Source: Semisulcospira habei (lineage: Eukaryota; Mollusca; Gastropoda; Semisulcospiridae). From it: 64,000 bases of DNA. How positions within the stretch are numbered: position 1 is the stretch's first letter; every line of letters begins with the position of its first letter. Where the stretch lies: positions 89,397,535 through 89,461,534 of the forward strand of contig BTPG01000006.1 of the NCBI GenBank assembly GCA_036245525.1. Reading direction: 5' to 3'. Shown here in pieces: positions 27,236-62,265 of the stretch. The notes below the pieces were generated by a model. It ran no database searches, had not been told where the DNA came from, and saw only the letters and a program-made list of their open reading frames with translations. Both the position numbers and the translations under genes were made by a program.

Positions 27236-27446
27236 TAACCCATTTAGCCCCAGCACCCTTCAGCAGGAGATGGATTGAGCGTGATAATTCAAGGGTAATG
27301 TCAGACGAGCTTGGCGCCTGATGACGTCAAGCTCACCTGGCACTACGTTGAATTATGATAATCGATCCATCTCCTACAGCTTGTACACAGTTGTTACATA
27401 ACACCTCCAAAATTTGGGAAATACGGTCGCGGAATTATATGGGATA
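27236..27446. mobile_element. TTAA-type hairpin MITE
   Basis: Begins TTTAACCCATTTAGCCCC and ends near GGGATAAG; inside are the paired modules AGCAGGAGATGGAT and ATCCATCTCCT around a CTTGGCGCC core. Degraded member of the family described at 31821-32044. Confidence 0.65.
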
Positions 27447-33433: not shown

Positions 33434-33647
33434 TTAACTCATTTAGCCAGACACGTGTATTTCCCAAATTTTGGAAGCGTCATCTAACGACTATGCACCT
33501 GTTGCAGTAGATGGATCGAAAATGATAATTCAAGGGTAGTGCCAGATTAGCTTGGCGCCGACAGGCGCCAAGCTAATCTGGCACTACCCTTGAATTATCA
33601 TGGTCGACCCATCTCCTGCTGTAGTGCGTCAGGGCTGAATGGGTTAA
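33434..33647. mobile_element. TTAA-bounded hairpin MITE, 214 bp
   Basis: Starts TTAACTCATTTAGCC and ends GGCTGAATGGGTTAA. The central hairpin pairs AATTCAAGGGTAGTGCCAGA with its inverse around GGCGCC. It shares its right TTAA with the next MITE. Confidence 0.8.
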
Positions 33648-34414: not shown

Positions 34415-35734
34415 CTTTGTTATGTACCAGTTGAGATGGAACTGAAGGTAGACCTCAGTGCTAAAAGCCACGAGACCGACGCGCACTTTGTGGTCGTCTA
34501 TACTCAGCCTGAAGACGACATCTATGAGGAACTGTTTCGTGCGGTGGAAGTCCACTTGACTCAGGCTGGTTGAGGTGTCCACGACAAACACCAGATCTAC
34601 AATGCCGTCTTCACAGCCTGTGATGACTCCTGCTGCCCTTCGCTGTAAACTCGGCTGCGTAGCTTCCCTTCGCTGTAGAAACCTGCTCTGTGTAGATTCC
34701 TTTTGCTGCAAAAACCTGTTCTGTGTAGCTTCCCTTCGCTGCAAACGCCTGTTCTGTGTAGCTTCCCTTCGCTGCAAACGCCTGTAGTTCTGTGTAGCTT
34801 CCCTTCGCTGTAAACGCCTGCTCTGTGTAGCTTCCCTTCGCTGCAAACGCCTGCTCTGTGTAGCTTCCCTTCGCTGCAAACGCCTGCTCTGTTTAGCTTC
34901 CCTTCGCTGCAAACGCCTTCTCTGTGTAGCTTCCCTTCGCTGCAAACGTCTGCTCTGTGTTGCTTCCCTTCGCTGTACACGCCTGCTCTGTGTACCTTCC
35001 CCTCGCTGCAAACGCCTGTTCTGTGCGACGGTAACTTCATTTCGCTGTGAACGATAGCTCCGTAAAGCTTCCCGGCGCCGTAAACGCCCGTTTGGTGCAG
35101 CTTCTTTTCGCTGCAAACGCCTGCTCTGTGAAGGCTTTAACATGTGGGTAGGCATGTTATCTCCCTGGCTTTGTCCAAGATCTGTGTTTCTCTCCAAAAA
35201 TTCTTTCTTTTTTTGCTTCTCGTCCGCTAACAAATAATAACTGATATATTCGTTCACAGATGTGGGCAGCTGTTTCTGCTGTACGTGTCTTTTGTTTGCA
35301 ATTACAGACAAAGCCACGACGTCTTCCTGGGTCGCCCAACGGTGTGCGTTATCTGAAGACTCTGCCTTACTTTGTTCAGGATCACCTGCTTCCAGTGTCT
35401 CTAGTTCAACCACTTTGTTCATCGTAACTTTGTCCACAGCCTTCAGAGCTTCTTCTTTCTCAGGTGCATGTGGCTGTGCACTGTTCCCATTATCTGTCTG
35501 ACATCTATCTTCCTCAAAAGCCTGTGTGTTCACGTTGCCCACGGTATCTGTTTGACGTTCCTCCGATGTGACATGTCTGATCATATTTTCATGCCAGGAA
35601 GTATTCTGGTTTCTGTTGGGTTTTGACAATGGGTTCTCTGAAATAAACTGTTCGCCATGCTGATGTTTCTCATGTTTTGCAACAACGAATAGAAAGACAC
35701 AGAACATCCAGAGACAGAGCCTAACGATTGCCAT
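34415..35734 (-). CDS. Receptor gene exon 1: signal peptide, basic repeats, first half of VWA
   Basis: 440 codons from an ATG in good context (ACAATGG) to a GT donor at 34414. The first 20 residues (MAIVRLCLWMFCVFLFVVAK) form a signal peptide-like hydrophobic stretch. Residues about 21-203 are Glu/Gln/Lys-rich and low in Cys. Residues about 204-367 are an 11-residue basic repeat. The VWA domain starts near 373 with DLVFVVDTSTSLS, where DTSTS is the DxSxS metal-binding motif, and continues in exon 2 in phase 0. Joined to exons 2-7 it forms a secreted or membrane receptor ectodomain. A VWA domain with a minisatellite on an LDLa/LRR receptor is unusual. Confidence 0.88.
34634..35125 (-). repeat. 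Coding minisatellite, 33-bp unit (11 residues, SRRLQRREATQ)
   Basis: About 14 tandem units, most close to SRRLQRREATQ, lie between the signal peptide region and the VWA domain. Units near the ends are more divergent (RKEAAP, QQKESTQ), the middle ones nearly identical, as expected for unequal exchange. The unit is strongly basic and rich in RR pairs. All units keep the frame; one carries an extra codon (NYRRLQ). Confidence 0.92.
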
Positions 35735-37904: not shown

Positions 37905-38124
37905 CCCATATTATACTGAGCTAAAAGCTTCGAATTTGTACACTGCCATAGTGCAAGCTACATTATAGTACTTGCAGATAAGGATATAGACCAATGGCTT
38001 TAGTTCAAGGGTAGTGCCAGAATAGCTTGGCGCCTAGAGGCGCCAAGCTATTTTGGCACTATCCTTGAACTACTTTAGTCAAACTTATTTCACATACTGG
38101 TGTATTCCGAATGATAAGAGTTAA
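37905..38124. mobile_element. TTAA-type hairpin MITE, inverted orientation
   Basis: Reverse-oriented copy of the 31821-32044 type: GTGTATTCCGAATGATAAG before the right TTAA (38121-38124), hairpin around GGCGCC in the middle; the left end has lost its TTAA. Confidence 0.65.
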
Positions 38125-39180: not shown

Positions 39181-39384
39181 TTAACACATTCTGCCCCAGG
39201 ACCGAAATCTCCCAATTATGAAGCTGCCCTCTGTATTACAATTCTAGAGACAGCTCGAGCATGATAGTTCAAGGGTGGTGCCAGAATAGCTTGGCGCCTG
39301 TGGGCGCCAAGGTATTCTGGCACCACCCTTGAACTATCACGCTCGATCCATGTCTTGCTGTGGTGTGTCGGGGCTGAATGAGTT
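39181..39384. mobile_element. TTAA-type hairpin MITE
   Basis: Starts TTAACACATTCTGCCCC; the right end reads GAATGAGTTGAA, a mutated TTAA. Internal hairpin as in the family. Confidence 0.7.
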
Positions 39385-46861: not shown

Positions 46862-47066
46862 TTAACCCTTTTAGCCCCAACACCCTACAGCAGGAGATTG
46901 ATTGACCATGATAATTCAAGGGTAGTGCCAGATTCGCTTGGTGCCTTCAGGCGCCCAGTGAATCTGGCACTACCCTTGAATTATCATGGTCAATCCACCT
47001 CCTGCGACTGGTACTTAGTCATTAAGTAACACTTAAAAAATGCACTCATGGGGCTAAAAAGGTTAA
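46862..47066. mobile_element. TTAA-bounded hairpin MITE, 205 bp
   Basis: TTAACCCTTTTAGCCCCAAC to GGGGCTAAAAAGGTTAA; inner hairpin ATAATTCAAGGGTAGTGCCA with its inverse. Termini are perfect inverted repeats over the first dozen bases. Confidence 0.82.
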
Positions 47067-49456: not shown

Positions 49457-50529
49457 CTGCAAAGAAATGTACAGATGTTGATAAAATTATACACTGATGA
49501 GCAAAAGAAATGCAACATTTTTGGAATCATTGGAAACATAAAGTGATTCTGATGATTCAAAAATTGTTACATTACTTGTGCTTGTCAGAACAGATGTTGA
49601 AAGCAACAACAAATTTAATTTTAATCAGGGGTCAAACCCATCATTGGACTAATACGAAACTATTGCTACTGGCATGTACATTTGTATTTGTATGTCCAGT
49701 CCAATGTGGACGATTGGCCATGAATATGCAGTCAGGGATCATTTTTGTAGCGCGCCCTGCGCACTTGGCGCATAATTTCCCAAAATGACCCATAAGATTT
49801 TGAGGTGAGGGGTCAATGACCCATAGGCTTCTGTAGGCAACGGGCCCTTTTTTAAGTCCCTTCTATTTATAGAAGGGACTTTTTAGGACGGGTCACGGTG
49901 GGGCGAATTTAATAGCATGTCCATGATGTCAAAGGCGGGCAGGCTAAACCTCTAAAAATTGAAGTAACGAGATAAAAATTACGTCATGTCTGGTTACGCT
50001 AACCTCGCTGCTGAACGTACATTTGGCACAAAGCGCCCTATGTGCGTATGTATGTATGTGCATATGTATGTATGTGTGTGTGTATGTATGTAAACAAGAG
50101 AATCTCTGATATTTCTATACACACAAGCTTGAAACTTGGCGAAATATTTTCTTAAGTGGGTGGCTAAGAGAGCCTCTGAGCATATTGCAATTGAATATCT
50201 CATTGAAGACATAAACAACCGTTTATAGGAAGTCCATTGACTCAGATTAGAGTCCGTAATTTTTGTCATATTTACTTGAACTTTTGCACATAGCTAGTTT
50301 GAAGAAAGACATTGGACGAGTTCGTTAGCCAGCTTTGTATCCTTTCAACTTCTTTAGTAAAAATTAATTCTTTTCAGAACATATTAAAACACTAAAATAC
50401 CTTTACTTCTAGAGAAAGTCAGACAGTGGCGGTGACATAAAAGAGGCAACTCCGTCACCACTGACATAATACACTAAATATATCATTCTCTCTCGTGCAC
50501 ACGGCTCTCTCTCTCTCACACACAAACAT
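49457..50529. repeat. TMEM53 intron: CTGATGAGCAAA MITE and left part of a 1.2-kb repeat
   Basis: A CTGATGAGCAAAAGAAATGC MITE (copy 2) lies at 49489-49590. From about 49850 (AAGTCCCTTCTATTTATAG) to 50529 the sequence matches 61058-61751. The DIRS element then interrupts it; the repeat resumes at 56822. Confidence 0.75.
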
Positions 50530-50783
50530 TCATTTTTCTCTAAAAGGTATTTTTTCGAAAAATACTTACCGATGACATGACTCGGAGGACCCTCCCTCCT
50601 GCCCCGCTTGCCACTTTCGAGCGAAGTATCAGACTGGCCGGTCTCGTGACCGGAGCCGGTAAGGCGGGAAACGGGAGACAACTCTCGGCCCCTCTAGGGG
50701 GGTTCCCCGAGTGCCTCCCGGGTTGTGTGGGCACACAACGGGTGAGTAGGCTAAAATTGAGCTAGTAGTAGACATTTCCACAA

Positions 50784-50879
50784 AGTCATGTCATCGGTAA
50801 GTATTTTTCGAAAAAATACCTTTTAGAGAAAAATGAATTTGTTTCCTCAAAAACATTACCGATGACATGACTTTGTGGA
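50784..50879. repeat. DIRS internal complementary region
   Basis: Contains GTCATGTCATCGGTAAGT (complement of the left end) and ACATTACCGATGACATGACT (complement of the right end) head to tail, with the junction near 50835. Confidence 0.85.
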
Positions 50880-50979
50880 AGAATTGCGATGAGGAGGAGG
50901 GTGCCGCGCAAACTTCTTAATGGTAAACAGCGCCGTCCTCCCAGTCGCAAACTCCCGACAATTTTAGCGAAGTGCATAC

Positions 50980-52062
50980 CTACGGCGCCGGTGGCGCCGG
51001 GAGGGAGTGTTGCGCCACAGCGATGTCCCCCACCAGTGCGAGATTCTCTCGTTGGCCTGCCAGGTCCCTGAGGTAGAAGCGGGCGAATACAGAGTCAGTC
51101 TGCCAGCCCACAGCTGCCACGATGTCCTTGACAGTGCAGTTTCGATCAAACGCGAGGCTTGTGGCCATGGCTCGTACCTCATGTGCGCGAATGTGCAGCC
51201 TCTTCGCTCCCTGCGGGGAGATATCTTGATACGCGGAGCGTATAACCCAGCGGAGCCAGGATGAGATCGTCTGGGCTGTTATGTCATTCCTGCTGGGTCT
51301 CAGAGGTAGGAAGAGGCGCGAACGCCCTCTGCGGAAGGCTTTAGATCGTCGCAGATAAACTCTAAGGGCGTGCACGGGATCCTGTTGCCTGGTCTCCTGA
51401 GACAAAGGGTTGGTTCTTAGTGGCCGTAAGGTGATAACCTGAGGCGCAGTCAGAGGAGACCTGTTCTTGGCAAGGAAGGCAGGGTCAGTGAGGAGTTGAA
51501 CAGACCCGTCCACTCGGAACTGTAGGCAGGTAGGCCGCGCCGAGAGTGCGTGTAGCTCACTCACCCGAGAGGCGGTAGCAAGGGCCAGCAGGAAGCACGT
51601 CTTTCGTGTCACATCTGCGAAACGGGCCAAAGGTAAGGGTTCAAATCTGTCAGAATTCAACCACGTCAGCACCCAGGGCAGGTCCCAGCGGGGAAGGAGT
51701 GAGCGGTGTGTTGGGCGCTGGATGCCGAAGTGTCCCATAAGGTCGGCTAAGTCTTTGCAGGCGCCCGGGTCTGGGTGTCCAAGGTGTCGATAAGTGTCAG
51801 CGATCATGGACAGGTAACCCCTCACAGTGATGGGGGCCAGGCCTATGTCTCAAAAGAGCCAGAGGAAGAAGTCCGCCAGCTGAGGATTAGTCAGTTCCGT
51901 GGGGGACAGGCCGTGCTCAGAGCACCAGGAACACAGGACTCGCCACTTTCCCTCGTAGACTCGAATGGTCGAAGGTCTGCGGGCCGCAGCGATCGCCTCC
52001 ACTGCTGCACCCGAGTAGCCTCTAGCTCCGAGGGCTTGCCGCACAACCTCCAGGCGTGAAGG
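50980..52062 (-). pseudogene. DIRS tyrosine recombinase, one in-frame UGA
   Basis: The N-terminal core-binding part (RRPSTIRVYEGKWRVLCSWC) ends at a UGA at 51850-51852; the same frame then continues (DIGLAPITVRGYLSM) to the catalytic domain. Counting from the Met at 51825, catalytic residues are visible: Arg87 in ATASRVSELHAL, His215 and Arg218 in AHEVRAMA, Trp241 and the nucleophile Tyr251 in VGWQTDSVFARFYLRDL. All five expected residues are present. The UGA would stop translation unless read through, so the copy is probably inactive. Its start overlaps the RT frame, as is usual in DIRS elements. Confidence 0.85.
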
Positions 52063-54296
52063 AGGAGCCGCTCCGGGCAGGGGTGGAACAGCGGCTGACG
52101 CGGTTGCTTGAGCATGGTGCGTGGGGCGGGAAGCAGCAGGGGCGGGTCCGTGGCGAGGCTGAGAAGGTCGGTGGTCCAGGAGCGGTTCCAGGCAAACGGT
52201 GCAACTAACAGTAGGACCGCCGAGCAGCCCCGAAGCTTGAGAAGGACTTTGGGTACGAGAACCGTCGGGGGGAAGGCGTAAGCCACAAGGCCGTCCCAGG
52301 GAATGGAGAGCGCATCGACAGCCCAGGCAAGGGGATCGGAAATCGGGGAGACGAAGAGAGGCAGCTGATGGTTCCACCTCGTGGCGAACAAGTCGACCTG
52401 GGGAGTCTCCCACCGGGCACAGATCATCCGAAAGATGTCCTGCCGAAGGGTCCATTCCGTGTGCAAGAGCTGGCCGCGGCGAGACAGCGAGTCGGCTAAG
52501 ACATTCAGGTGTCCGGGGATGTGTCGGGCTCGAATGGTAATACCCCGGTCCTCGCACCAACGCATCATCCGGTAGAGGAGCATACAAAGGTCGGGAGAGC
52601 GAGTGCCACCTTGTTTCTGGATGTAAGCCACCACAGTCGTGTTGTCCGAGAGGACGAGCAGCTCCTGGTGTCTGAGGAGATCCTCCCAGAACTGCAGGGC
52701 TTGCCAAACGGCCTGCATCTCCAGCCAGTTGATGTGGGTGTGCGCTAGGTCCGCGGGCCAGGGCCCCGAAGTCGAGAGGAACCGAGGAAGGAGATGAGCG
52801 CCCCACCCAGTGAGGCTGGCGCCGACACAAAGCGAGGTCTGGGGTGGAGGGGAGGCCAGGGGAACTCCCGACGCTAGCCAAGAGTGGTCGGTCCACCGAC
52901 GAAGATGAGGAAGCAGCATCTGGGGCACCGGAACCAATGTCGTTAAGTCGCCTGACGACGGGCGCCAATGGAGTAGAAGATGCAGCTGGATCGGCCGGGA
53001 GTAGAGACGACCTAGGGGGATAAGGTCGGCTGCGGCGTTCAGCAGGCCCAAAAGCTGGAGCCAGACTCTGGCGGGGGCCACGTCCTGTCGTGCTAACTGA
53101 CCGGCTAGATCCGCAATCTTCTGGATCCGGGGGGCCAGGAGGCGCACCGTGTTGAGGTCGGTCGCAAATTCCATGCCCAGGTGCACGAAGCGGCGGGACG
53201 GAGAGAGATCCGACTTGCCGTCGTTCACTACAAAGCCCAAGTGTGCCAGAAGCAGCAGCTGCGCATCCCTGTCCGACGCGAGCGAGGTCTCGGACTGGTT
53301 GCGTAGGAGGAGGTCGTCTAGGTAATTCAACGTCAGACTGGAGGATGACTGTCGGGCCTTGGCGACTACGGCGTCCATCAGCCGGGTGAAAACCCAGGGG
53401 CTGAGGTTGAGTCCGAACGGGAGCGCACGAAACTGGTATACTACGCCGTCGATCGCAAACCGGAGGAACTTCCTGGAGGCCTGGTGCATCGGGACATGCA
53501 GGTACGCATCTGAAAGGTCCAAGCTGACTGCGAAGTCCAGAGGCTGGACCGCGGCTTTCAGGGCTCGGGCAGTCTCCATCCGGAAGGAGGGGGCCGTAAT
53601 GTACTTGTTCAGGGCCGAGAGATCGATAACCGGTCGCCATCTCCCTCCAGGCTTCAGAACGATGAACAAGCGGCTGTAGAAGGCTGGGGAGTCGGGGACG
53701 CGTACCACCTCCGTGGCGGCTTTCCTCAGGAGGGAGGAGACCTCTCCCCGAAGAGCGGAGGCCTTCAACGGGTCGCTGGGAACCTCGGTCCAAAGGGGGG
53801 AGCGACGCAAAGGAGGCAGGCTGCGAAAGGCGATCCGGAGGCCGGCCGAGACGGTGTCGCAAATCCAGGGGTCGTCGGGAAAGAGTGTGAGCCAATTTCC
53901 GCTGAAAAAGGCTAGCCTCCCACCGACCGGAGACCCCGAAGTAGTCGGTGGGGGCAAGGCTGGGGGGCAGTCAGGCAGCCCGCCCGCGACCCGGTCGCCG
54001 GTCGGGATGGGGCCAAGCGGGGGCACGGGCCCTGGAGGGTCTAGGATGGCCAAAGGCGGGAGCCTGCTCAGGGGCCGAAGCAGGGGCTGAAGCGGCAGAG
54101 GGTCTAACCGACCGCGAGGCGCGACCCCTAGCCTGGCGGGAGGACGGAAAGCGGCGGGGAGGAGGAGCACTCGCAGGCCAGCGGTCGGGGTTGGAGGCTC
54201 GAACGGAGGACCAGGTATCGCCGAAAAGCAGGGGACCACCCAGCGGAGCACGACGAAGCTGCGCATGCAGGTCAGGTGGTATCCCTCGGCAGGCAA
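51891..54296 (-). CDS. DIRS reverse transcriptase-RNase H
   Basis: An uninterrupted 801-codon frame. The RT domain starts around residue 130 (FFSGNWLTLFPDDPWICDTV) and includes WRPVIDLSALNKYI, FAVSLDLSDAYLHVPMH (first catalytic Asp), FRALPFGLNLSPWVFTRLM and TLNYLDDLLL (the YLDD box, near 53320). The RNase H part follows with NWLEMQAVWQAL, LVLSDNTTVVAYIQKQGG and HIPGHLNVLADSLSR. The last 60 or so residues overlap the recombinase frame. The native start may be upstream of the Met used here, since gag and RT frames overlap. Confidence 0.9.
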   Translation of the reverse strand: MPAEGYHLTCMRSFVVLRWVVPCFSAIPGPPFEPPTPTAGLRVLLLPAAFRPPARLGVAPRGRLDPLPLQPLLRPLSRLPPLAILDPPGPVPPLGPIPTGDRVAGGLPDCPPALPPPTTSGSPVGGRLAFFSGNWLTLFPDDPWICDTVSAGLRIAFRSLPPLRRSPLWTEVPSDPLKASALRGEVSSLLRKAATEVVRVPDSPAFYSRLFIVLKPGGRWRPVIDLSALNKYITAPSFRMETARALKAAVQPLDFAVSLDLSDAYLHVPMHQASRKFLRFAIDGVVYQFRALPFGLNLSPWVFTRLMDAVVAKARQSSSSLTLNYLDDLLLRNQSETSLASDRDAQLLLLAHLGFVVNDGKSDLSPSRRFVHLGMEFATDLNTVRLLAPRIQKIADLAGQLARQDVAPARVWLQLLGLLNAAADLIPLGRLYSRPIQLHLLLHWRPSSGDLTTLVPVPQMLLPHLRRWTDHSWLASGVPLASPPPQTSLCVGASLTGWGAHLLPRFLSTSGPWPADLAHTHINWLEMQAVWQALQFWEDLLRHQELLVLSDNTTVVAYIQKQGGTRSPDLCMLLYRMMRWCEDRGITIRARHIPGHLNVLADSLSRRGQLLHTEWTLRQDIFRMICARWETPQVDLFATRWNHQLPLFVSPISDPLAWAVDALSIPWDGLVAYAFPPTVLVPKVLLKLRGCSAVLLLVAPFAWNRSWTTDLLSLATDPPLLLPAPRTMLKQPRQPLFHPCPERLLLHAWRLCGKPSELEATRVQQWRRSLRPADLRPFESTRESGESCVPGALSTACPPRN

Positions 54297-55999
54297 GCAG
54301 AAGGGTGTCTCGACGCTTCAGGTCACAGTTGGCGGAGGCAGCCATAGCGTTGACCGACGAGTGGTAGGCAGCGCGGTTGGCGACTTCCGCTAAGACGAGT
54401 AAATCCCCAAGGAGAGGCGTGATAGAAGGATGCCAGGAGTCTTCCACACGACGAACCAGGGCTTGAGTGAGCAGCTCCAGAAACCCAGCGCAGGCTAAGG
54501 TGTTCCGCACCAGGGACGCAGTCATATCCAGGCCACGAGGAAGGGAACGGCGAAGAAGAGCGGAGCCGCCAGCTTGCGACACGGCAGGGGGGGTCCATCG
54601 CAGGAAGAGGGATGGAGAAAGCCTGTGAATGGCCGGCATACCAGTCCCGACGGAAGGCGATGTCCAGGCCAGCCGGCCAGCGACGATCGGAAAAGAACAC
54701 CGGCTCTCGAGACGCGGGAAGTTGCAGGTGCGCTGAGAAGGCATCTCGCAGCTCCTTAAATCCAGGCGGCTGGGGAAGCGACTTGAACCTCTTAACTTGA
54801 AGCTCGGCATCCACAAAGGCAGAGACCTTCCTCTTCAGGGGGGGAGAGGCTGGGCAGGAGTCCGCTGGCAGAGTGGCCGCGATGATCCTGGCGGCTTCAT
54901 CCAAAGCTAAGAGGGTCTCCGCACGGGACGACGACGGAGGGGTCGAGGGGACATCATCACCGACGTCGGCGGGCGAAAGGGAGCGACCATCCTCATCCAA
55001 CAGGGCTGAGACGGAGTCCTCGGGCAGCAAACTGAGGGCTTCTTCGTCCAGGAGGCGGCGAGAAGGCGGGCGAGGCACCGAGGAAGGCCGAAGCTTGGGC
55101 GGGGACGCGTGACGAACCTCGCGGGAAGCCCGGGAACGAGCCAGCAGCGACGACGGAGGCGGGGATCGCCGAGGCGAACGCGAGAAGGAGCGAGGAGGGG
55201 TCCTGTCCGGAGCGCGGGAACGAAGTCTGGACGAAAGACGGCGGACAACCGAAGAGGGGCGCCGACCACGGGAAGAGGGCCGATGATGGCGGTGACGCGG
55301 CGAACGCAACGAACGGTGCGAGGGCGAGCGCGACCGCGCACGCGACGAGGAGTGGCGGGGGTAGCGGCGACGATCCCGGCAGGGGGAATGATCCTTCCGG
55401 CGGCGCTCGAGGGGCGAGCGCGAGTGTCTAGAACTGACGGTGGAACGGGATGAGTCGGGGGCGCGACTGTGTCGCGTAGGTTGAGGCTGACGTCTCTCCT
55501 GACCGGACTCGGTGAGAAGGGCTCTATGCCGGCGTACAGATCCTCCGGAAGGATCAGCAGGCTTATCGTGGAGAGAGAGAGGAGGAAGGCCATTCAACGT
55601 GGGACGGCTCGTGGCGGACTGCTGCAGGCCGGGCTCAGTGAGGCGGGCGCTCTGCCGGCAAACAGACCCTCCGGAAGGGTCAGCGGGCGTGGCAGCAGTG
55701 GCAGTCCTCTGGTCAGCGAACAACGCAGGGTCCCGACGAGCAATCCGTTCCGAGAGGCCGAGGCGAGGAAGGGCGGTCGTTACCACAGGGGCGGCGGAAG
55801 CGGCAACAGGAGTCGGACGAGAGGTAGCAGACGGAGGTCGCTCTCGCCGGTAAAAACTCCAGAGGTCAGACCAACGGATCTCCGGCCAGGTCGCACAGAC
55901 ATCGCAGAGATGGTCCGAGGCGCAGCCCGAACAGGGGAGGCAGACCGCATGGTCGTCCGTCGGCCACTGCAAGTCGCCGCATTGAGAGCAGGTAAGCAT
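54110..55999 (-). pseudogene. DIRS gag-like protein with a frameshift
   Basis: The likely start is the Met of MLTCSQCGDLQWPTDDHAVC at 55999, giving a Cys-rich N-terminus (CSQC...CLPC...CDVCATW) like a zinc-binding head. An Arg/Ser-rich middle (RSRSPSHRSLRSPRHRHH) follows, then FKELRDAFSAHLQLPASREP. The frame shifts near 54590, at a run of seven G on the plus strand, and continues as SLVRNTLACAGFLELLTQAL and SVNAMAASANCDLKRRDTLL. The second half matches what is expected upstream of a DIRS RT, so the break looks like a homopolymer indel. Confidence 0.7.
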
Positions 56000-56821
56000 T
56001 TGGGTCCTGCAACAGACAAAGGGCACAACAAGGTCGCAAAGGCAGACAAGGGGGCCTAGCCCCAAACAAAGGTACTCCAAGCGCCGTGACCACCGGCGCG
56101 TGAAATAGTGGCTACACTCTCCAAGGGCTAAAGGGCCTTTAAGGTAGACGAATGGAGCGTGGGTGCCCAAAGGCCCTACGAGAAAAAGGAAACCCTAGCC
56201 TCTAAAAGGCAACATCTACTCGTAACAGTGAAGCACAAAAAGGAGAGAAAGGCGACGTCCCTCGAGGAGACTCGTTAAAAAGGTCGTGCAAGGCGCCGGA
56301 ACGTAAGCTCAACTGCTGGCGCCCATGTAGTAACAAAGCCGAAAGGGAAGCCCAACGGTAGCCGGCTCTCGGCCCGAGGGCCGGCTGTGGGTAGCTACCA
56401 CTACCTTACCTCCGAGACGAATCGGGAACGGGGGGGGAAGGGTAGCCAAACACCTCCACAGCCCAGAGGAGAGCAGCAGAATGACGCAAGCAGAGGCAGG
56501 CAACGAGAAGGCAGGTCAGCCCTAGAAGGCGGCAGAGCACACGAAGAGGCAACGAGCGTAGGCAAGAGGAAGACCGGTCGAAGCAGCGCGAGAGCCAGGC
56601 CAGACACGTCTTCTCTGTACGAGCGAAGTAGCAAGACTGGCCGGTCTCGTGACCGGAGCCGGTAAGGCGGGAAACGGGAGACAACTCTCGGCCCCTCTAG
56701 GGGGGGTTCCCCGAGTGCCTCCCGGGTTGTGTGGGCACACAACGGGTGAGTAGGCTAAAATTGAGCTAGTAGTAGACATTTCCACAAAGTCATGTCATCG
56801 GTAATGTTTTTGAGGAAACAA

Positions 56822-57330
56822 ATGCGTGCATCTCCAGGAGGAATAGATCCTCATGCACCTGAAGGGCGCATGAGGGTCTATGCCTCTTAGAGATGTTTGG
56901 AGCGCGCTCATGCACGCACATACACATCGACGCACTTTCAGAAGAGCATGCAGGTGACCCATGTACTTAGTATATAAAGTCAACCTGCTTTCACACAAAT
57001 TATAGCAAGACTGAAATTGTACCATGAAGTTCAAGTTCTGTCACCATTTTCTCAAGCCGATGAAGCAAAAGTGAAACTCATAATTATCACGTAAAATATA
57101 AAATTACGTAAAAACTAAAACTTACGTCATAACAAATGACGTTTGACAAATCAATGACGTGTATGTCTTGTGCCCCTTATAGAACTCACCGACGCATTGG
57201 CAGATCTGCGAGACTTTTTCAATAGGAAATAATTCAACATCAGAATCAGGTCAAAGACGAAAAGTAGAGACCATCGACAGCAAAGACAACTCTCATATAA
57301 AAGGGACTTTTGGGGTTATGGTTCATCCCA
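56822..57330. repeat. Right part of the 1.2-kb repeat split by the DIRS element
   Basis: Continues the match to 61752-62265: GTGCATCTCCAGGAGGAATA, a CATGAGGATCTATGCCTCTT hairpin, and GGGTTATGGTTCATCCCATC near the end. Confidence 0.8.
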
Positions 57331-57686
57331 TCTTGTTTCATGTGCTCCTAAAGGCCCACCCATCTTTTTTTCTCCCCGTCACCCCAAGCTCCTGCTTATC
57401 AATATTTCTGCAGCTGGCGAGAAGGTGCCCGCATACACCCCACCCCAGCTTTTCGATATTTCAGCAGTTGGTAACAAGGCGTTCACACACTGCCCCCCAC
57501 CCCCCCCTCTTTGCAGGTGGAGGAATGGTGCTCAAACACATTTGGCCCATCCCATTTGACCCATTGGATTTGTACTCTGCAGGCCAACGACCCATGAGCG
57601 TAAATTTTCAGAATGAACCTTGTGCAGACACAACTTTGATGCAAGTGGATGGCTCATGACTCTCTGTCTCTTGCTGGCCTAAGTCA

Positions 57687-58141: not shown

Positions 58142-58244
58142 GAGCCCATTTAACCTCACGGCTGCATTTCTCAAAATTGGGAGGACTCATCTAATGCATA
58201 GGAGGTGGATCAACCATGCTAATTCAAGGGTAGTGCCAGATTAA
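58142..58244. mobile_element. Left half of a TTAA-type hairpin MITE, split by the ribozyme array
   Basis: The left MITE arm (CCCATTTAACCTCACGGCTG through TTCAAGGGTAGTGCCAGATT) stops at 58244. The matching right half (GTTTGGCGCC onwards) begins at 60694. Confidence 0.8.
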
Positions 58245-58541
58245 AAGAAAAGGGGAGACTGCCAGTGCTAATATTTTAGGAAGGTTACAAAGTAAAGTAG
58301 ATAATAGCACTGTCAGGGGAGAGAAGTGTGCATGATCGACCAGTGATCATAGATCTACTGTGGCCAAAGCACAAAAAAAAAAAAAGAGATAGGAAAGAGA
58401 GGGGGTGCTAAAAGATTGACTAAAAGCAATGCATATGGAAGCCCCCTGAAGGGGGCGTATCACATATCCCACTGTTCCAGCCACTCTGTGCATGGAAATT
58501 TAAATCTAGGTCCCCCCCAAGGGGGGTCCAGATATTTAGCT

Positions 58542-58585
58542 GGTGTGGACAGCTGTTTCGGTCTTGGTGACCTCTTCAGCACACC
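58542..58585 (-). ncRNA. Hammerhead ribozyme, copy 1
   Basis: Minus strand in order: stem I 5' strand GGTGTG (58585-58580); core CTGAAGA; stem II GGTC, loop ACCAA, GACC; core GAAA; a self-complementary stem III CAGCTG; cleavage-site TC (58549-58548); stem I 3' strand CACACC (58547-58542). Stem I pairs perfectly over 6 bp and all conserved core positions are present. Type I with a minimal stem III, which is expected to work best as a dimer. Confidence 0.9.
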
Positions 58586-59193
58586 ATCGGCGATACTAGA
58601 GAAGGCAGGAATTTCTGCCTACCTGCAATGACAACCACATTTTACTGTGGTGTCTGCAGGGGCATACATTCCATGCCACCACCTAGAGCTAAATCTCCAT
58701 GCACCCTAAAAGAGAACCTACCAAAAGGGGGGAAAGGGTTGCAGTCGATATTGTAGTAGTAAATGAAAAGAAAAGGGGAGACTGCCAGTGCTAATATTTT
58801 AGGAAGGTTACAAAGTAAAGTAGATAATAGCACTGTCAGGGGAGAGAAGTGTGCATGATCGACCAGTGATCATAGATCTACTGTGGCCAAAGCACAAAAA
58901 AAAGAGATAGGAAAGAGAGGGGGCGCTAAAAGAGTGACTGAAAGCAATGCATATGGAAGCCCCCCGAAGGGGGCGTATCACATATCCCACTGTTCCAGCC
59001 ACTCAGTGCATGGAAATTTAAATCTAGGTCCCCCCAAGGGGGGTCCAGATATTTAGCCGGTGTGGACAGCTGAGAAAAAGATAGGAAAGAGAGGGGGCGC
59101 TAAAAGAGTGACTGAAAGCAATGCATATGGAAGCCACTCAGTGCATGGAAATTTAAATCTAGGTCCCCCCAAGAGGGGTCCAGATATTTAGCC

Positions 59194-59237
59194 GGTGTGG
59201 ACAGCTGTTTCGGTCTTGGCGACCTCTTCAGCACACC
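59194..59237 (-). ncRNA. Hammerhead ribozyme, copy 2
   Basis: Same as copy 1, exactly 652 nt away, with loop II GCCAA. A further GCC/GGC pairing beyond a short internal loop can extend stem I (GCCGAT upstream, GGC downstream). Confidence 0.92.
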
Positions 59238-59845
59238 ATCGGCGATACTAGAGAAGGCAGGAATTTCTGCCTACCTGCAATGACAACCACATTTTACTGT
59301 GGTGTCTGCAGGGGCATACATTCCATGCCACCACCTAGAGCTAAATCTCCATGCACCCTAAAAGAGAACCTACCAAAAGGGGGGAAGGGGTTGCAGTCGA
59401 TATTGTAGTAGTAAATGAAAAGAAAAGGGGAGACTGCCAGTGCTAATATTTTAGGAAGGTTACAAAGTAAAGTAGATAATAGCACTGTCAGGGGAGAGAA
59501 GTGTGCATGATCGACCAGTGATCATAGATCTACTGTGGCCAAAGCACAAAAAAAAGAGATAGGAAAGAGAGGGGGCGCTAAAAGAGTGACTGAAAGCAAT
59601 GCATATGGAAGCCCCCCGAAGGGGGCGTATCACATATCCCACTGTTCCAGCCACTCAGTGCATGGAAATTTAAATCTAGGTCCCCCCAAGGGGGGTCCAG
59701 ATATTTAGCCGGTGTGGACAGCTGAGAAAAAGATAGGAAAGAGAGGGGGCGCTAAAAGAGTGACTGAAAGCAATGCATATGGAAGCCACTCAGTGCATGG
59801 AAATTTAAATCTAGGTCCCCCCAAGAGGGGTCCAGATATTTAGCC

Positions 59846-59889
59846 GGTGTGGACAGCTGTTTCGGTCTTGGCGACCTCTTCAGCACACC
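59846..59889 (-). ncRNA. Hammerhead ribozyme, copy 3
   Basis: Identical core to copy 2 and again exactly 652 nt further on, so the self-cleaved monomer would be 652 nt. Confidence 0.92.
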
Positions 59890-60380
59890 ATCGGCGATAC
59901 TAGAGGAGGCAGGAATTTCTGCCTACCTGGAACAGTGGGATATGTGATAGTGGCTGAAACAGTGGGATATGTGATACGCCCCCTTCGGGGGGGCTTCCAT
60001 ATGCATTGCTTTCAGTCACTCTTTTAGTGCCCCCTCTCTTTCCTATCTCTTTTTTTTTTTTTTTTTTTTTGTGCTTTGGCCACAGTAGATCTATGATCAC
60101 TGGTCGATCATGCACACTTCTCTCTCCTGACAGTGCTATTATCTACTTTACTTTGTAACCTTCCTAAAATATTAGCACTGGCAGTCTCCCCTTTTCTTTT
60201 CATTTACTACTACAATATCGACTGCAACCCCTTCCCCCCTTTTGGTAGGTTCTCTTTTAGGGTGCATGGAGATTTAGCTCTAGGTGGTGGCATGGAATGT
60301 ATGCCCCTGCAGACACCACAGTAAAATGTGGTTGTCATTGCAGGTAGGCAGAAATTCCTACCTCTTCTAGTATCGCCGAT

Positions 60381-60426
60381 GGTGTGCTGAAGAGGTCGCC
60401 AAGACCGAAACAGCTGTCCACACACC
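60381..60426 (+). ncRNA. Hammerhead ribozyme, copy 4 (inverted arm)
   Basis: Plus strand: GGTGTG (60381-60386), CTGAAGA, GGTC, GCCAA, GACC, GAAA, CAGCTG, TC (60417-60418), then CACACACC. The extra CA shortens stem I pairing to five base pairs. Core intact. Confidence 0.85.
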
Positions 60427-60680
60427 GGCTAAATATCTGGACCCCCCTTGGGGGGACCTAGATTTAAATTTCCATGCACTGAGTGGCTGGAACAGTGGGA
60501 TATGTGATACGCCCCCTTTGGGGGGCTTCCATATGCATTGCTTTCATTCACTCTTTTAGCGCCCCCCGCTTTCCTATCTCTTTTTTTTTTTTTGTTGTGT
60601 GGCCACAGTAGATCACTGGTCGATCATGCACACTTCTCTCCCCTGACAGTGCTATTATCTACTTTACTTTGTAACCTTCC

Positions 60681-60795
60681 TAGTGCCAGATTAGTTTGGC
60701 GCCATAGGGCGCCAAGATAATAATGTGGCACTATCCTTGAATTATCACGGTCGATCTATCTCCTGCTGTAGTGCATCAGTGCTAAATGGCTGTTA
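60681..60795. mobile_element. Right half of the split TTAA-type MITE
   Basis: Carries the duplicated TAGTGCCAGATTA, then GTTTGGCGCCATAGGGCGCC and TCTATCTCCTGCTGTAGTGC, the usual right arm of this MITE family. Confidence 0.8.
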
Positions 60796-61054: not shown

Positions 61055-62265
61055 TCTTTTTAAGTCCCCTCTATTTATAGATGGGACTTTTTAGGACAGG
61101 TCGCTGTGGGGCGAATGTAATAGCATGTCCATGATGTCAAAGGCAGACAGGTTAAACCTCAAACAATTGAAGTAACAATATACAAATTACATCATGTCTA
61201 GTTATGTTAACCTCGCTGCTGAACATACATTTGGCGCAAAGCGCCATATGTGCGTATACATGTATAGTATGTATGTATGTATGTGTGTGCGTATGTATGT
61301 AAACAAGAGAATCTCCGATATTTCTGTACACACAAGCTTGAAACTTGGCGAAATATTTTTCTTAGTCGGTGGCTAAGAGAGCCTCCGAGCATATTGCAAT
61401 TGAATGTCTCATTGAAGACATAAACAACCGTTTATAAGAAGTCCGTTGACCCAGATTAGAGTCCGTAATATTTTTCATATTTACTTGAACTTTTGCATAT
61501 AGCCAGTTTGGAGAAAGATATTGGACGAGTTCGTTAGCCAGCTTTGTATCCTTTCAACTTCTTTAGTAAAAATTAATTCTTTTCAGAAAAGAATTAATAC
61601 ACTAAAAAACCTTTACTTCTAAAGAAAATTAGACAGTTGCGGTGACGTAAAAGTGGGAACTCCGTCACCACGCAGAAACTGACATAATAATGTAAATATG
61701 ACGTCATTCTTTCTCGCGAGTGTGGCTCTCTCTCTCTCTCACACAAACATGTGTGCATCTCCAGGAGGAATAGATCCTCATGCGCCCTCCAGCCGCATGA
61801 GGATCTATGCCTCTTGGATATGTTTGGAGCGCGTGCACGCACGCACACACACATCAATGCGCTTTCAGAAGAGCATGCAGGTGACCCTTGTACTTAATAT
61901 AACATGTAGAGTTAACCTGCTTTCACACAAATTATAGCAAGACTGAAATTGTACCATGAAGTTCTAGTTTTGTCACCATTTTCTCAAGCCTATGAAGCGA
62001 AAGTGAAACTCATATAACGTAAAATATAAAATTACGTAAAAACTAAAACTTACGTCATGACAAATGATGTTTGACAAATCAATGACACGTATGTCCTGTG
62101 CCCCTTATAAAACTCACTGACGCATTGGCAGATCTGCGAGACTTTTTCAATAGGAGATAAATAAACATCAGAATCAGGTCAAAGTCAAAAGGTAGAGACC
62201 ATTGACAGCGAGGACAGCTCTCATATAGAAGGGACTTGTGGATTATGGTTCATCCCATCTTGTTA
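61055..62265. repeat. 1.2-kb interspersed repeat, uninterrupted copy
   Basis: Begins AAGTCCCCTCTATTTATAG and ends near ATATAGAAGGGACTTGTGG, giving inverted TATAGA(A/T)GGGACTT-like termini of a probable non-autonomous DNA transposon. It aligns with 49850-50529 plus 56822-57330 but lacks the DIRS element. Includes a (GTAT)n tract (61262-61300), a (TC)n tract (61723-61740) and a CTCATGCGGC hairpin (61768-61815). Confidence 0.8.

Follow-up and report, generated by a model that had tools for sequence, protein, structure and literature searches.

The four hammerhead ribozyme motifs present in a 64,000-nt stretch of DNA (the window) belong to a single retrotransposed element. This element is one of a genuine high-copy family of retrozymes, a kind already known, with a unit that exceeds those described in size. 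The best explanation of the family, and one that we consider probable, is that of a protein-less retrozyme whose RNA is processed by the hammerhead and copied into DNA by a Penelope-like element (PLE) acting in trans, with priming at two internal sites, A and B. Genomic arrays would be transcribed, and the hammerhead would cut the RNA, which would probably then be closed into circles by re-ligation. A Penelope-like reverse transcriptase/endonuclease would then make a staggered cut, and both DNA 3′ ends would prime cDNA at internal RNA sites, site A (u~299) serving one end and site B (u~260) the other. Finally, head-to-head joining of the two cDNAs, which are from 0.1 to 4.8 units long, would leave a target-site duplication.

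The window contains exactly four matches to the pattern CTGANGA-N13-GAAACAGCTGTC, of which three lie on the minus strand and the fourth on the plus strand, compared with 0 in 100 dinucleotide shuffles. A looser pattern without the CAGCTG requirement returned the same four sites, against 0.01 expected. All four motifs carry CUGAAGA, a GGUC/GACC stem II with a 5-nt loop, GAAA, CAGCUG and GUC, and they show the features that define a type I hammerhead (CUGANGA, stem II, GAAA, stem III, NUH and an open stem I). The presence of four complete type I hammerhead motifs, proposed in an earlier note on this sequence, is confirmed. Stem I is 6-7 bp long in copies 1-3 and 5 bp long in copy 4 (CACACACC), where a bulge (2-nt insertion) follows. 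The stem III/cleavage-site half is also present, without the core, in two further partial copies at 59067 and 59719. The positions of all features are given in Table 1.

Table 1. Features of the window element, in window coordinates
Feature	Positions	Strand	Basis
Left target-site duplication, 13 bp, TAGTGCCAGATTA, 4 letters shared with unit	58231..58243	.	exact repeat at both ends; empty sites
Left arm, hammerhead-sense units, sense 3′ end at site A (u~300)	58240..59932	-	unit alignment
Putative reverse-transcription start hairpin, stem CAGTGCTA/TAGCACTG	58263..58312	-	sequence; subfamily comparison
Hammerhead copy 1, core 58548-58579	58542..58585	-	sequence and pattern match
Rearrangement junction (poly-T tract region/CAGCTG), first copy	59067..59085	-	genome-wide count
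Hammerhead copy 2, core 59200-59231	59194..59237	-	sequence and pattern match
Rearrangement junction (poly-T tract region/CAGCTG), second copy	59719..59737	-	genome-wide count
Hammerhead copy 3, core 59852-59883	59846..59889	-	sequence and pattern match
Head-to-head junction, 16-nt gap between unit alignments	59933..59948	.	unit alignment
Right arm, hammerhead-sense units, ending at site B (u~263)	59949..60682	+	unit alignment
Hammerhead copy 4, core 60387-60418	60381..60426	+	sequence, pattern match; sub-gathering RF02275 match
Right target-site duplication, 13 bp, 2 letters shared with unit	60681..60693	.	exact repeat; empty sites

The earlier note had called for a covariance-model search and a genome-wide copy search. 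Rfam reported no hammerhead at the gathering threshold over the whole window, so that none of the window motifs matched a covariance model at that threshold, and it reported none at E<=10 over a 6-kb stretch. On 86 nt alone, Hammerhead_HH9 (RF02275) aligned the core correctly at 60371-60439 (19.7 bits, E=0.0051), with a score far under the gathering score of 52. The 33-nt motif, by comparison, is found in the 1.98-Gb genome, where the window occupies 89397535-89461534 of contig C6, in 3,665 exact copies and in 8,716 copies with up to three mismatches, against 0 in reversed-pattern controls. A structural scan requiring stems I-III, applied to all sequence examined, yielded 77 motifs, all of the same family and some double-counted in overlapping loci, and 0 motifs on the reversed sequences. 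Read literally, the lack of a match at the gathering threshold is the outcome that the earlier note had named as refuting its reading. We regard the covariance-model test as weak because the correct alignment emerges below threshold on a short stretch and because thousands of copies stand against zero in the reversed controls. For the latter reason a chance origin of the motif, which the earlier note had called implausible, is untenable.

The tiny palindromic stem III (C-AGCU-G) favours action as a dimer, and folding supports this earlier suggestion. Two strands of one 44-nt hammerhead copy are predicted to form a full double hammerhead at -36.3 kcal/mol, and the best predicted fold of a single strand (-16.1 kcal/mol) is not a hammerhead. 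A stem III of one base pair with a palindromic tetraloop is likewise described for HHR_Amex1 of newt and axolotl (PMC7229834), and the axolotl ribozyme with such a stem III works best as a dimer (PMC7229834). The likeness comes from the description of stem III and not from unit sequence, the unit of the newt/axolotl satellite being 330 bp (PMC7229834).

To characterize the family, we examined 41 loci, consisting of the window and 40 of the 58 clusters among the first 100 matches listed, all of which lie within roughly the initial 47.5 Mb of contig C1. The reference unit is a real 515-nt unit from one of these loci (L037), and its numbering (u) starts at the cleavage site. Among the listed matches, 26 of the 27 same-strand spacings below 3 kb were 515-540 nt, most commonly 518, and the remaining one was 2,899; the unit length is ~515-518 nt. 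The 652-nt circle that had been proposed as the product from the window does not hold as a general product. The 652-nt period is made by the joining of a poly-T tract region to CAGCTG, and this junction was counted only twice genome-wide, both times in the window and 652 bp apart. Because the period stems from a junction unique to the window, a circle of ~515 nt would be expected for the family. A second subfamily, 82-89% like the first, was observed at six loci (L015, L017, L029, L036, L042 and L043); its loop and tail differ (ending ...TTGGTAGTTT and ...CGGTCTAGTTTT), and its hairpin stem and hammerhead are the same.

The window locus is one retrotransposed element. When its flanks are joined across the 13-bp repeat, they align in one piece to paralogous copies (for example window 33506-33642, 83.6% over 140 nt), which represent empty sites. 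The outer repeats of the element are inverted, not direct. The earlier reading of the locus as a retrozyme-like noncoding repeat with real hammerheads is supported; the single orientation that it implied is not: the array is head-to-head inverted. As had also been noted, no protein is encoded, with no ORF >=120 aa (stop to stop) in the element and hence no RT plus GIY-YIG ORF of the kind that marks an autonomous PLE; the earlier view that movement would need an enzyme in trans is likewise supported. The insertion target is a short palindromic repeat (ATAATTCAAGGGTAGTGCCAGATT...AATCTGGCACTACCCTTGAATTAT) with many copies in the window (33506-33642, 46867-47003, 39260-39380, 27240-27376, 38001-38072 and others).

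Insertion scars are common in the sample. A target-site duplication score >=10 was obtained for 29 of the 41 loci compared with 16 of 1,640 cross-locus pairs, although three of the 29 duplications are of low complexity (L010, L040 and L046), and a clear duplication is absent in the other 12. We compared 17 elements letter by letter, namely the 19 head-to-head elements with a duplication, minus L033 (mismatched duplication), L037 and L042, plus L034 (8 bp). The matched length was 8-17 (median 13), or 6-13 (median 8) after subtraction of the letters shared with the unit. Over 18 duplications together, A+T was 65%, compared with 55% in the flanks.

The ends of the copies are fixed on one side only. 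With element limits set by hand, and with the A and B windows and limits defined after the alignments had been seen, 32 of the 65 sense 3′ ends at the 41 loci fell in A (u280-312, median 299), 29 in B (u245-272, median 260) and 4 elsewhere, the two windows together making up 61 of 515 positions. This bimodality is plain in the listed values, but with windows chosen afterwards its nominal binomial probability is not to be read at face value. The 65 5′ ends are scattered; window A contains 6 of them and window B 2. Moreover, the two sites are paired: among 24 head-to-head elements, 22 have one arm ending at A and the other at B, two have A with an atypical end, and none has A/A or B/B. All 19 head-to-head elements with a duplication are A/B. 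Single-orientation loci (n=17) end at A in 8 cases, at B in 7 and elsewhere in 2. Strand changes among listed neighbours less than 3 kb apart are 13 '-+' and 0 '+-', that is, the units point outward. Arms range from 0.13 to 4.81 units, and they meet at scattered central junctions with small overlaps or gaps.

On average, the unit and the duplication have 4.6 letters in common per element, counting both ends, compared with an analytic estimate of ~0.7-0.9 (17 elements). This identity spans 2-7 letters at 22 of 34 ends; L034 shares none. Given this excess of shared letters, priming probably involves pairing of the DNA with a few internal bases of the RNA, which would continue past A and B. A template ending at A was considered and rejected, since no indel interrupts A in 30 of the 31 internal units and the end letters shared with the target belong to the unit. 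The hammerhead cleavage site is crossed 68 times by internal units.

Opposite arms of one element are closely related. They differ by 1.39%; permuting the arms of 20 elements raises the figure to 3.68%, and none of 1,000 permutations gave a value as low. Segments below 88% identity or shorter than 60 nt were excluded from this comparison, as were L020, variable tracts, and the loci of subfamily 2 and other divergent ones. Units of the same arm differ by 0.89% and units of different elements by 3.84%. This pattern is consistent with each element deriving from a single RNA molecule or a single source array.

Both start sites lie at a hairpin in the unit RNA (Table 1), with B in the loop and A about 20 nt 3′. 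In divergent-subfamily copies that reach the hairpin, u271-282 has zero mismatches; of the 471 windows, four others are equally conserved and none more so. The divergent-subfamily stem is CAGTGCTT/AAGCACTG, in which one pair is changed on both sides, and the loop is different. The circular unit as a whole is predicted to fold at -194.9 kcal/mol (z = -9.8 versus 40 dinucleotide shuffles), and its antisense also folds well (-178.1). For the hammerhead, conservation inside the 33-mer is no evidence because the loci were chosen by it. In stem I outside the selection pattern, 4 of 168 cells (2.4%) in eight divergent-subfamily loci differ or are gapped, compared with 538 of 4,174 (12.9%), but the 12-nt window u472-483 ranks only 58 of 471, so that stem I lends modest support to conservation of the core.

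Fixed internal starts of this kind have been described for PLEs. For the anole PLE, cDNA starts at two adjacent internal sites that bound a 30-40-bp 'tail', and both strands are cut and extended (PMC11167929); for Penelope, the tail is found on one of the inverted pLTRs, and in rotifers the target-site duplication is 8-10 bp (PMC3846280). The retrozyme copies match this signature, having two internal starts and a tail on one of two inverted copies, with an A-B gap (~40 nt between medians) that reaches the top of the published range of tail lengths. They also resemble the published PLEs in their head-to-head arrangement, similar duplication length and small type I hammerheads (PMC11167929, PMC3846280). 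Taken together, the insertion scars suggest copying into DNA by Penelope-type enzymes. The resemblance has limits: the retrozyme lacks an RT or GIY-YIG ORF, and its primer microhomology and strict A-with-B pairing set it apart from PLEs as published. These last two features are not predicted by the anole PLE, because in vitro its start site is the same for both strands and has no homology to the cut DNA (PMC11167929).

Candidate enzymes are encoded in the genome, which has at least 35 GIY-YIG matches (150 of 1,583 candidates scored). At two loci the ORF carries GIY-YIG, the one domain that Pfam scored in either ORF, with no RT family. The PLE-type ORF has 85 relatives, many of them also with PF26215 and PF28514, and we take this domain set and the RT-like motifs to mean PLE. 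Two of the relatives are named by organism: Thiolapillus sp. (54% over 69% of the query), which is a bacterial label, and the gastropod Batillaria attramentaria (70% over 28%). Neither the unit sequence nor a hammerhead was found in the two PLE-type loci compared.

Which enzyme moves animal retrozymes is an open question in print. Two 2020 papers name PLEs as likely or strong candidates on the basis of co-occurrence, tandem copies and a ribozyme type in common (PMC7761336, PMC7229834). The relation to PLEs raised in the earlier note is thus a published suggestion, to which the copy anatomy reported here adds sequence evidence. In a limited search of the open-access literature, we found no report of a PLE-like A/B end signature in a retrozyme. 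If trans-acting PLE machinery is the right explanation, it offers a test by counting in any retrozyme-bearing animal genome, as well as a natural reporter of the rules of PLE priming.

A more specific version, which we offer tentatively, is that one circle is copied simultaneously from both ends of one staggered cut. A and B would be mutually exclusive, the hairpin being shared by two reverse-transcriptase protomers, and the hammerhead would supply a seamless circle for multi-unit cDNA. If true, the retrozyme would be a viroid-like circular RNA that parasitises Penelope, with a start-site rule that can be read from thousands of copies.

The alternative that fares best is that an uncut multimeric transcript of a genomic array serves as the template, with PLE-type priming unchanged, no circle and no need for the hammerhead. 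We lean against it, while taking it seriously. It draws on the finding that the anole PLE inserts hammerhead-dead RNA in vitro, unprocessed RNA being the dominant substrate (PMC11167929). It is also consistent with our 5′ ends, none of which (0 of 65) lies within 6 nt of the cleavage site, compared with about 1.5 if ends were uniform, although selection for an intact motif biases against such ends. Against an uncut template stands the conservation of stem I in divergent subfamilies noted above (2.4% versus 12.9% mismatch). In addition, some elements show little or no difference between the units of their two arms (0 differences in every comparison for L048, 0-1 for L027), which fits one circle copied repeatedly; however, a young source array would also give this near-identity.

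We are more doubtful that the unit is a deleted relic (terminal repeat) of an autonomous PLE rather than a retrozyme of independent origin. Hammerheads with a short stem III and the tail signature are indeed PLE traits (PMC7761336, PMC3846280). However, the unit has no ORF >=120 aa and no similarity to the two PLE loci compared, and its circular fold (z = -9.8) is as for retrozymes. Such an origin would alter the pedigree of the family but not the mechanism.

It is unlikely that the head-to-head copies arose by snap-back self-priming of one cDNA instead of priming from both DNA ends. Self-priming has been favoured for rotifer Penelope on the basis of palindromes at inverted junctions (PMC3846280). 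It predicts that the arms meet at the same unit position, but only 2 of 22 central junctions are near-palindromic (5′ positions <=15 nt apart), and on these grounds we rejected it. Furthermore, snap-back leaves unexplained why the second arm has a fixed end at the site of the other type.

Equally improbable, and largely refuted, is SINE-like movement of the repeat by an APE-type LINE of the genome. A LINE (RVT_1, Exo_endo_phos) was present in or beside 5 of the 41 loci (L041, L030, L011, L010 and L019), and in L030 and L041 its 3′ end abuts u303-305 of the unit, so that the unit was first taken as the LINE 3′ UTR. This assignment was dropped. The junction of LINE 3′ end and unit occurs only twice in the genome, and the shared 3′ end by which a SINE is recognized is not seen for this LINE family. 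In L030 the LINE is a later insertion, because its own ~11-bp duplication of unit sequence (ACTACTACAAT) surrounds it, and in L010 and L011 the LINE copies are followed by other DNA. LINEs are not known to prime in pairs at two fixed internal start sites, which also counts against this alternative.

The notion that the family is ordinary satellite DNA spread by recombination, with the hammerhead as a relic, is hardly tenable: the 652-nt rearrangement in the window does resemble a local tandem duplication, but the copies are dispersed and have fixed ends, and the target-site duplications and empty sites refute satellite recombination as the mode of dispersal.

The protein-less retrozyme, probably moved by a PLE in trans, can be compared with related systems. 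Like the metazoan non-LTR retrozymes of Cervera and de la Pena 2020 (PMC7229834), it consists of noncoding tandem units with type I hammerheads, is present in thousands of copies, has duplications longer than 4 bp even without unit-shared letters, and has a predicted RNA that is highly self-paired. It differs in its unit of ~515-518 nt, outside the published range of 170-400 nt (PMC7229834). A further difference is the presence of head-to-head copies whose ends are fixed at A and B; the main text of PMC7229834 nowhere uses the word 'inverted'. Plant LTR retrozymes are likewise hammerhead-bearing non-autonomous retroelements (PMC4918200), but they have type III hammerheads, LTRs and 4-bp duplications (PMC7229834). 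The Schistosoma W-elements are similar in being satellite-like repeats, some with functional hammerheads; the part of their description cited here makes no mention of an A/B end signature (PMC8490949).

Several minor observations were made in the course of this work. At three places (L030:1102-2847, L041:2724-6653 and L045:1947-6708) a LINE-type insert directly borders the unit at u301-308, near site A; these inserts may mark a target hotspot. The left LINE junction in L041 (u95) has no matching duplication, and the nearest named proteins of the LINE are from mixed animals. After the LINE copy in L010 comes a long run of GGGTTAGGGTTTCCTACAGGACTA-like repeats that recall those of telomeres (L010:5384-6001).

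Within the window, an RT ORF at 51894-54317 (-) adjoins an ORF at 50983-51849 (-) that has a weak, sub-cut-off tyrosine-recombinase match, and G+C in the RT ORF region (52-56 kb) is 63-66%. The retrozyme sits between split direct repeats, 49849-50529/61057-61750 and 56822-57337/61749-62264, and the RT ORF together with these repeats (49849-57337 and 61057-62264) may be a DIRS/Ngaro-like element. At 34655-35130, about 14 copies of a 33-nt repeat lie within an ORF of 449 aa that includes a partial von Willebrand A domain; a search for relatives of this ORF found none.

Two patterns had 0 matches in a viral-contig collection. In the genome, the pattern CTGANGAH...GAAAC...GTC had 844 matches, compared with 642 in the reversed control. 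Among 100 listed places, 31 were inspected by letters: three are degenerate copies of the retrozyme family, and eight are one recurrent sequence whose stem II pairing is poor by eye. Two others have a GGATC/GATCC stem II (e.g., C1:25125171 and C1:85298401) and may belong to another small hammerhead family of the genome.
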